37,836 nt of DNA from Treponema sp. (GTDB lineage: Bacteria > Spirochaetota > Spirochaetia > Treponematales > Breznakiellaceae). Positions within the stretch are counted from its first letter, which is position 1. Each line of letters starts with the position of its first letter. Where the stretch lies: contig JAITIC010000013.1 in assembly GCA_031279635.1 (NCBI GenBank), positions 1-37,836 of the forward strand, written 5' to 3'. The translations under genes and the position numbers were made by a program. This document shows positions 14,882 through 21,783 of this stretch, one piece after another. The notes beneath the pieces are model-generated. The model had not been told where the DNA came from. It saw only the letters and a list, made by a program, of their open reading frames with translations, and ran no database searches.

Positions 14882-14904
14882 AATCCCCTGTCAGGCCGGG
14901 GATT
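14882..14904 (-). terminator. Candidate terminator of the JetA-like gene
   Basis: On the minus strand AATCCCC, 9-nt loop, GGGGATT, then TT and TTTTGAAAAGG. The 7-bp stem begins at the stop codon itself. The T-run is short, so this is a weak call. Confidence 0.4.
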
Positions 14905-16427
14905 CAATATCCCGGTTCATGCTTTCTGCGCATCCGCACATTCGGGACGGCATACCCCGCGGCGCTTACCGAAAGCGCGCCGTATTCCGCCGCGGCTTCC
15001 TCAACCGCGTACGCAAAGTTCTTGCGGGAGTCGCCGTACAGCAGGGAGTAGACAAAGCGGATATAGGAATCCCCGCCGGTGATAAGATCCGCCGGGGCGA
15101 GCAGGCGCTCCTTTCCGCCCTGCTCGTCAAGCCATGCGTTAATGCGCTTGAGGGAAAGCCGCCGCCGCATGCGCTCAAAGAATTCTTTCTCGGTCCGGGA
15201 CAGGGCCTCAATATCCGCAACGGAGGGCGCGGCGTTAAAATCCCCCTCGTCACGGCTGCGGCGGAAAGCCAGGGAGGAGGGCGCGAGAAAAACGACGCGG
15301 TACAGGCCGTGGGAAAAATGTTCGGCGGCCGCCGCGTTGCCGCCGTGAACGGCCTGTATCAGAAGCCCCAGCTTTCCCGCCACGGTACTGTCAGGCTCAA
15401 TACAGGCTTTGATGATTTCGGTACTGGAGCGGGAATAGGCGGCGTTCCTCCGGTCTATCTCGTCTTCCAAAGGATCTACCGAGCGCAGGTCGTCCCTGAT
15501 CTCTTCCAGCATGCCTTCCAGTTTTTTCCGGCAGTCTTCGCGGCTGGTCTGCAGTATCCGCATATACCTGGCCACGCTGGTCTCAAGCCATTCGTCGTCG
15601 CGGAGCAGGTCCGCCACCTGCCGGAAAATCGCCTGCCGGTACCGGGAAACATTGTCGGAAGTCTTGAGGCGCTTGTAGGCCTTGTCCAGCACTTCCCCGG
15701 CGTACAGATCATAATGCTCATGCAAAGCCGAGGCAGCCTTTGAGCGCACCGCTTCGGCGTTGAGATTATCATAATAACCTTTAATGCTTTGGGAGAGTAC
15801 CTTCAGGGAATCAATGAGGGCGCGGGCTTCCTCGTGGGCCTTGAGCACCATGAAGTGGCCGTTTTCCTTTACGGTTTCCCCGCAAAGGGAAGAGTAGACA
15901 TTCACTACATGGCTTTCGTATTCGGTTTTCAGTCCCTCGTCCACGCGGATCAGGGATTCAAAAAACGGCTTGCCCCAAGCGGTAATGTTGATGACGCGGG
16001 TGAAGTCAGGCAGCGTTTCGTCACTGAGCCAGCCTGAGCCGGTGAGCCGCCGCAAAAAACGGCCTGCCAGCGCCCTTTCGTCACCGAGCCGGCCTGTTGT
16101 CCCGCCTTCCGCGCCTGAACCGGCCGCAGACGGCGGACTTTCCGTGGGCGGACTTCCGAAATCCAGCATTCCGGTTTCCGCGTCCGCCGGAACTTGCGGC
16201 CACGGGACCGCTCCCTCGTCGCCCTCTTCTTCGGCAAGATTGTCCCGGTGCAATCCGAGGTAGGCCATGAATTCACGGATCACCAGTTCCCGTTCAATGC
16301 CCCTGGTATTTTCCTGAAAGAGCCGGTAGTAGAGCACCAGCAGCGCCGCGTAATGTTCTTTGTTTACCCGCGCCAAGGGCGAAAAAAAATTCTCTGGTAA
16401 AACGGAAAAAACACCGGCGCCGGACAT
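14904..16427 (-). CDS. JetA-like (Wadjet kleisin, DUF5716-type) orphan protein
   Basis: 507 aa. The opening FSVLPENFFSPLARVNKEHY (about 7-26), followed by LLVLYYRLF and GIERELVIREFMAYL, matches my memory of JetA, the MukF-like kleisin subunit of Wadjet SMC complexes. The middle agrees too: HYDLYAGEVLDKAYKRLKTSDNVSRY (about 238-263) and DEIDRRNAAYSRSSTE (about 322-337). Residues 66-118 are an acidic then proline/serine/glycine-rich linker. The C-terminal third has no clear match. In Wadjet, JetA bridges an SMC-like ATPase (JetC) with JetB, and JetD cuts DNA. None of those genes is in this window. The frame is open up to 16619, but that part is the 118-bp repeat; the ATG at 16427 is supported by a promoter 6 nt upstream. 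Confidence 0.72.
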   Translation of the reverse strand: MSGAGVFSVLPENFFSPLARVNKEHYAALLVLYYRLFQENTRGIERELVIREFMAYLGLHRDNLAEEEGDEGAVPWPQVPADAETGMLDFGSPPTESPPSAAGSGAEGGTTGRLGDERALAGRFLRRLTGSGWLSDETLPDFTRVINITAWGKPFFESLIRVDEGLKTEYESHVVNVYSSLCGETVKENGHFMVLKAHEEARALIDSLKVLSQSIKGYYDNLNAEAVRSKAASALHEHYDLYAGEVLDKAYKRLKTSDNVSRYRQAIFRQVADLLRDDEWLETSVARYMRILQTSREDCRKKLEGMLEEIRDDLRSVDPLEDEIDRRNAAYSRSSTEIIKACIEPDSTVAGKLGLLIQAVHGGNAAAAEHFSHGLYRVVFLAPSSLAFRRSRDEGDFNAAPSVADIEALSRTEKEFFERMRRRLSLKRINAWLDEQGGKERLLAPADLITGGDSYIRFVYSLLYGDSRKNFAYAVEEAAAEYGALSVSAAGYAVPNVRMRRKHEPGY

Positions 16428-18005: not shown

Positions 18006-18275
18006 ATGGGCGTTTTGGAAGAATGGCGGGACATCAAGTATACGGAGACATTTGAGGCTGAACTGCGGGGGCTGGAACGCCGCAGACAGGCCGACCCGAA
18101 CTGTAAAATAGCGGATTTAGAGGGGACTCTCAAGCATTTGCGCATCATGGACGGGGCCGATTGGGGCGGCCGGGGCGAAGTGCAGGACACAATTATAGCC
18201 GCCACCATAGCCGCCTATGAGCATTTCATTGCCCGGTGGAGGGCGGATTTGGCGGAGATCCCCGATGTTTCCTGA
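18006..18275 (+). CDS. Small conserved-looking hypothetical protein (89 aa)
   Basis: The ATG follows the TAG stop of the preceding gene with no gap; GCGGGGA at 17994-18000 can serve as RBS, so translation is probably coupled. The protein is soluble, charged and helical (EEWRDIKYTETFEAELRGLERR, and an IIAATIAAYEHFIARW helix). No signal peptide, no motif I recognise. It could be a cytoplasmic partner or regulator of the exported protein; that is a guess from position. Confidence 0.65.
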   Translation: MGVLEEWRDIKYTETFEAELRGLERRRQADPNCKIADLEGTLKHLRIMDGADWGGRGEVQDTIIAATIAAYEHFIARWRADLAEIPDVS

Positions 18276-21539: not shown

Positions 21540-21575
21540 CAGCCTGTTGCGCTTGTGGATTTTTTGCAATCTGAG

Positions 21576-21605
21576 GCTTTCCCAAAATTTCGGTTTTGGG
21601 AAAGC
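21576..21605. repeat. Palindrome, 12-bp stem
   Basis: GCTTTCCCAAAA (21576-21587), loop TTTCGG, TTTTGGGAAAGC (21594-21605). First of a series of hairpins after lepA. No T-run follows. Confidence 0.85.
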
Positions 21606-21618
21606 AACCTTGAAATTC

Positions 21619-21652
21619 GCAGTTTTGCAGGGCTGAAAGCCTGAAAAACTGC
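21619..21652. repeat. Hairpin with nested stem
   Basis: Outer arms GCAGTTTT (21619-21626) and AAAACTGC (21645-21652). Between them GGCT and AGCC can pair as an inner stem. Confidence 0.7.
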
Positions 21653-21656
21653 AAGA

Positions 21657-21710
21657 GCCTGTCCCAAAACCGTGCGCGTTAGCGCACAGGCAATTAGTTT
21701 TGGGACAGGC
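21657..21710. repeat. 14-bp inverted repeat of the TTTTGGGACAGGC family
   Basis: GCCTGTCCCAAAAC (21657-21670) pairs perfectly with GTTTTGGGACAGGC (21697-21710). A second hairpin, TGCGC-GTTA-GCGCA (21673-21686), sits inside. A sister palindrome with the variant core TTTTGGAACAGC is at 23281-23310. Confidence 0.85.
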
Positions 21711-21783
21711 GCATCTTTCAGGAAAAATGCAAAAAAATCCCCGATTTATGAGGCAGCTTGGGGCTAAAGCAGCTTGCAGGGTA

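Follow-up and report, generated by a model that had tools for sequence, protein, structure and literature searches.

An unlinked Wadjet kleisin gene in a Treponema genome that carries jetB, jetC and jetD on another contig

Type I Wadjet (JetABCD), a defence system that cuts plasmids and in which JetA is the subunit closing the ring, is also known under the names EptABCD and MksBEFG. DNA loops are extruded by a motor of JetA, JetB and JetC, JetD cuts a small circle once its extrusion is complete, and activity requires all four subunits (PMC10586767). The locus described here raises the question of what a gene for the kleisin subunit is doing on a stretch of DNA from which jetB, jetC and jetD are absent. 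That stretch, referred to below as the window, is the complete 37.8-kb contig C209 of the source genome G000, a draft assembly of 3.1 Mb in 276 contigs with a completeness of 91% and a contamination of 5.4%. A sequence-only reading of the window had described an “orphan” JetA-like kleisin, for which it offered three options: partners elsewhere in the genome, a repurposed subunit, or a different complex. We followed this up by searches of the window, of the whole genome and of 200 genomes of the family.

The kleisin gene and its neighbours

The 507-aa open reading frame is real and lies on the minus strand, with its ATG start at 16427 and its stop at 14904. The frame stays open up to 16619, which would give a protein of 571 aa; this longer reading was rejected, the 64 additional residues being absent from relatives and crossing the region that holds repeat R1. 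JetA homologues start at the position of the 16427 ATG (alignment A1), so that the start chosen in the sequence-only reading is correct. The assignment to JetA/DUF5716 was upheld as well: against a cut-off of 26.2 bits, the Pfam profile PF18982 matches the protein with a score of 264.9 (E=1.3e-78) over residues 32-502 and profile positions 2-434 of 434, the best of the PADLOC JetA1 models gives E=5.2e-73, and the alignment shows that the JetA residues conserved family-wide are retained. Judged by these profile matches, the product of 14904-16427 is a genuine JetA, the kleisin of Wadjet.

The Pfam search gave no MukF-family match to this kleisin, and a sequence search against solved structures, with the single sequence as well as with a family profile, found no relative. 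An AlphaFold model calculated from 22 sequences was of low confidence (pLDDT 61), and Foldseek comparison of this model with 350,542 chains gave no significant match, with a chain of the E. coli JetABC complex (8as8_E) ranking second at E=0.07 and 9qxt_E ranking fifth at E=0.12, both at low TM-scores. Given the low confidence of the model and the lack of a significant match, structure was kept out of the evidence. A promoter of its own, which had been ascribed to the gene, finds little backing, as the 3 promoter-like matches in the jetA region are close to the mean of 1.7 (sd 1.1) obtained with shuffled sequence.

The genes on either side of jetA are listed in Table 1. The 329-aa protein gave no Pfam match over the cut-off and no PADLOC or NCBIfam match. 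It was considered as a partner of JetA and dropped, given that it is present in 135 of the 200 family genomes, including many that lack jetA, and that its copy in the related genome G183 sits between an HD-GYP-like gene and argS; the gene forms a one-gene synteny island between G000 and G183. The match of the 414-aa exported protein to PF05593 (E=1.3e-4) is barely over the cut-off, and none of the relatives examined has such a protein beside jetA. Next to it, window positions 18006-18275 encode an 89-aa protein of unassigned function, a 71% identical copy of which is found in G154, about 1.3 kb from the 329-aa gene of that genome (L135:6317-6574).

Table 1. Features of the window (contig C209) and of contig C225 in the source genome.
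Feature	Contig	Position	Strand	Remarks
jetA	C209	14904..16427	-	507-aa kleisin subunit, type I Wadjet; PF18982 and PADLOC JetA1 matches
329-aa protein, function unassigned	C209	13678..14667	-	downstream of jetA; not a Wadjet part
414-aa exported protein	C209	16761..18005	+	divergent, upstream of jetA; one RHS-repeat match; not a Wadjet part
repeat R1, 118 bp	C209	16480..16597		52 bp upstream of jetA start; from self-comparison
repeat R1, second window copy	C209	1..118		first 118 bases of the contig; 99% identical, opposite orientation
jetB	C225	10746-11381		PADLOC JetB1 3.9e-29; DUF4194 1.1e-12; MukE-like KITE
jetC	C225	11378-14644		PADLOC JetC1 6e-258; Pfam SbcC_Walker_B, AAA_29; SMC ATPase
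jetD	C225	14705-15967		PADLOC JetD1 2.2e-37; Pfam JetD_C; Toprim nuclease

The remaining subunits on a second contig

Searching the whole genome returned one JetA (C209), one JetB (DUF4194), one JetD_C and one SbcC/JetC Walker-B match, the last three all on contig C225. The sequence-only reading was therefore right that jetB, jetC and jetD are missing from the 37.8 kb, genome-wide searches placing them on C225 only, and of the options it offered, that of partners elsewhere is borne out by the intact jetB, jetC and jetD on that contig. The term “orphan” does not survive the presence of an intact jetB-jetC-jetD block in the same genome: jetA is unlinked from jetBCD, not partnerless.

On C225 the three genes are adjacent and in order, with an overlap of 4 bp between jetB and jetC. 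The motifs of JetC are intact (Walker A GDNGSGKST, signature KSGGETQ and Walker B VIFDEAF, near residues 30, 971 and 1001), and a sequence search against solved structures finds PA14 JetC at 1.1e-6; JetD conserves its acidic motifs IENKETFY and GDLDPDG. An N-terminal IFDR motif described for JetB in a review (PMC10586767) is absent from the C225 protein and likewise from its relatives in intact operons. The gene for a 497-aa HDOD protein ends 18 bp before jetB, which leaves no jetA in front of jetB. Should C209 and C225 adjoin, jetA would be at least about 20 kb from jetBCD (14.9 kb between the jetA stop and the end of C209, and 4.9 kb between the end of jetD and that of C225), a distance that can be given only as a lower bound since the draft consists of so many contigs. 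Downstream of jetD, 63 residues of a metal P-type ATPase survive as a remnant at C225:16117-16305 (L004:6117-6305).

Set beside known systems, the four subunits fit the type I PADLOC models and have the expected sizes and catalytic motifs together with the usual jetB-jetC-jetD order, and they differ from type I Wadjet in that jetA lies outside the operon and jetBCD directly behind the HDOD gene. JetA, JetB and JetC correspond in role to MukF, MukE and MukB of MukBEF/MksBEF, but the kleisin lacks a MukF match and the nuclease JetD is present with intact motifs. A further comparison is with the intact jetABCD operons of the family (G005 L055, G007 L051, G067 L052), which hold orthologues with JetA and JetC 72-80% identical, but in which jetA is directly upstream of jetB. 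What is new is only the encoding of the Wadjet subunits at two places; the proteins themselves are ordinary.

All four proteins have their nearest relatives in G173 and G005. Identities of JetA, JetB, JetC and JetD are 79, 75, 81 and 63% to G173, and 77, 74, 80 and 64% to G005, the latter with an intact jetABCD operon. Across 14 genomes, JetA identities between pairs rise and fall with those of JetC (r=0.85) and JetD (r=0.88), and less closely with those of the short JetB (r=0.68). Trees of 16 taxa join G000 with G173 and G005, weakly, for JetA (63/62) as well as JetC (58/53); a 14-taxon JetA tree was unresolved. Replacement of the original gene by a foreign jetA was also considered and is unsupported, as the 16-taxon JetA and JetC trees place G000 alike. 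Between G000 and G173, dN/dS amounts to 0.143 for JetA, 0.143 for JetB, 0.135 for JetC and 0.200 for JetD, values to be read as rough pairwise averages at a high synonymous distance (near 1). By this measure the unlinked JetA is constrained like JetB and JetC, which argues against a repurposing of the subunit.

Linkage of jetA and jetB across the family

Most of the named relatives are MAGs from Treponema or other Spirochaetia, and we read their sample names as pointing to an origin in termite guts. JetA is carried by 69 of the 200 family genomes, with no JetA match in the other 131. Comparison of the JetA and JetB coordinates placed jetA beside jetB on the same contig in 64 of these 69, contrary to the suggestion that relatives may lack jetBCD too. 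In three more (G040, G111, G101) jetA is cut by a contig end, and four further jetA fragments lie at contig ends of other genomes (G074:C351, G107:C21, G177:C59, G146:C49). A true split, in which jetA is full-length but not followed by jetB, which lies elsewhere, was seen among the 69 only in G000 and its congener G173 (MS502-93), where jetA is located on a 3.5-kb contig and followed by 404 bp of other sequence, and jetB is found at C6:19.2-19.9 kb. Nothing relevant on split Wadjet systems, or on Wadjet in Treponema, was found in the open-licence literature.

Did the two genomes inherit one split? In the JetA (100/98) and JetC (100/99) trees, G173 comes out as the sister of G005, whose operon is intact. 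A single split common to G000 and G173 would make these two sisters, a grouping that the JetC data reject (p-AU 0.007) and that the JetA data reject marginally (p-AU 0.041). This makes two separate splits likelier than one, and the phylogenetic signal indicates that the genes probably came apart separately in G000 and G173. A P-type ATPase is found behind jetD in both genomes, as the remnant mentioned above in G000 and as an intact gene in G173, and none turned up in G005; given this shared neighbour, one split followed by a re-joining in the G005 lineage is formally possible.

The age of the G000 arrangement can be judged from the independent assembly G183, which is separated from G000 by a dS of about 0.10-0.20 and has an HDOD protein 98% and a 329-aa protein 95% identical to those of G000. 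Compared with C225:9170-15962, its locus (L124:88-3120, C19) shows the same HDOD-jetB junction, with the jetB start codon changed, and runs from the HDOD gene through the first jetB bases and a 98-bp jetB piece to an intact jetD; deletions have taken 472 bp out of jetB, together with some 3.3 kb in which nearly all of jetC was contained. The jetD frame of G183 is open over 419 aa although JetB and JetC are gone. jetA was not found in this assembly, which is 77% complete. The occurrence of the HDOD-jetB junction without jetA in G183 implies that the junction predates the divergence of the two genomes, and the retention of jetD with loss of jetB and jetC implies that the lineage with the split is one in which these genes are also being lost.

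Other departures from the standard operon were seen in the family. The gene order is permuted to C-D-A-B in G110 (L173:810-7474) and in G075 (L174:4323-14999), where D and A are about 4 kb apart. Between jetB and jetC, inspection by eye revealed a 279-aa DNA methyltransferase-like gene in G173 (L046:9942-10781, C6) and a two-gene MazE/MazF toxin-antitoxin-like cassette in G176 (L056:6015-6610, C23); in G134 and G135 (L171:6166-10546, L172:4208-8653) the same two genes are separated by 4.5 kb, which by eye encode two repeat-rich surface-like proteins, a large receptor-like protein and a PilZ-like protein. Lone JetD-family genes occur in genomes without jetA or jetB matches (L167:6803-8077 in G053, L168:6748-8022 in G054, also L169 and L170), those of G053 and G054 with identical neighbours, a pseudouridine-synthase-like and a D-Ala-D-Ala-ligase-like gene; such a stand-alone Toprim nuclease could merit separate study. 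A second kind of Wadjet-like locus (L037-L044; e.g., G160:C39 and G150:C93) has DUF4194 and JetD_C together on one contig, both as strong matches, with no PF18982 kleisin nearby.

Assembly in trans and the fate of the split system

The expectation of a single four-gene cluster derives from detection tools and published operons and is not a known mechanistic requirement; in G000 the genes are divided between C209, with jetA, and C225, with jetBCD. The explanation that we consider likely is that the C209 JetA is the kleisin of a type I Wadjet whose jetBCD genes are those on C225, a system of dispersed genes with four proteins assembling in trans. With the genes at two places, assembly has to occur in trans, and the kleisin can be expressed differently from the other subunits. 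Going by the sequences, this dispersed Wadjet probably still works, and we infer that its four proteins still assemble. On the mechanism known from published work, JetA would connect the heads of JetC and join two JetABC motors into a dimer. This complex would act on small circular DNA by loop extrusion, the completion of which would switch on JetD and so lead to cleavage of the circle; nothing in the G000 sequences suggests a mechanism beyond this one.

As to how the genes were parted, a genome rearrangement probably took jetA away from jetBCD, perhaps at the dispersed repeats that are abundant in this genome. For the R1 repeat, 25 matches are listed in G000, of which six reach 98-100% along almost the whole repeat. 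The R2 repeat (about 148 bp), found directly upstream of the HDOD gene (C225:9022-9169) and again in the window (21573-21713), counts 67 among the matches listed, some 40 of them long, and the R2 family is common to the window and C225 with identities of up to 94%. That R1 and R2 mediate gene shuffling is a guess. After the split, jetA would have come under its own expression signals, and jetBCD, behind the HDOD gene, would probably be co-transcribed with it. A split kleisin fits the fluid background of these operons, which are permuted, interrupted and often lost in repeat-rich genomes.

This background of loss also lends some plausibility to decay, in which the split was a step towards the loss of Wadjet, the genes are intact since the loss is recent, and the system is dead in the G000 strain. 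The many family genomes without a JetA match point in this direction, as do G183, which behind the same HDOD gene keeps just the jetB scar and jetD, and the decayed cluster at L161:1921-4863, where jetA and jetC are internally deleted, jetD is a remnant and jetB is apparently whole. We nevertheless regard decay as unlikely, because G000 has four full-length reading frames with intact catalytic motifs and a dN/dS of 0.14-0.20, even if such pairwise averages over time would not show a very recent loss of constraint, and because the split predates the divergence of G000 and G183 and has persisted for some time without damage in G000.

Another scenario, that the split was selected, with a separate JetA locus setting the number of rings that close and arming the dangerous DNA-cutting complex only when JetA is made, appears quite improbable; if true, the split would act as an on/off switch for plasmid defence, at which these spirochaetes arrived twice.

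An artefact, either through C209 or C225 coming from another organism in the bin or through a misjoin of jetA at a repeat, is very improbable. The contamination estimate leaves room for the former, and the multi-copy R1, with its near-identical copies, sits exactly between jetA and its upstream neighbour as a possible site of the latter. Against this, the HDOD-jetB junction is unique sequence and recurs in G183, which has close copies of genes from both contigs; the self-comparison found no repeat match in the stretch from jetA to the 329-aa gene; both contigs carry R2; and a second genome, G173, is split in like manner. Most improbable of all is a repurposed kleisin, with JetA serving a housekeeping SMC or other partner and jetBCD working without it, for which the missing linkage alone would speak: JetA shares the constraint and the nearest relatives of JetB and JetC, it keeps the family-conserved residues, one matching JetBCD set is present in G000, and all four subunits are reported as necessary for Wadjet (PMC10586767). 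The option of a different complex finds no support in these results either.

The significance of a dispersed type I Wadjet for general biology is modest. Surveys of defence systems depend on gene adjacency, and would count the full Wadjet set of G000 as one incomplete system while passing over the rest. Within the family, operons form a natural series from intact through permuted, interrupted and split to scarred, in which one could examine whether co-expression of the subunits is needed and which subunit is lost first.
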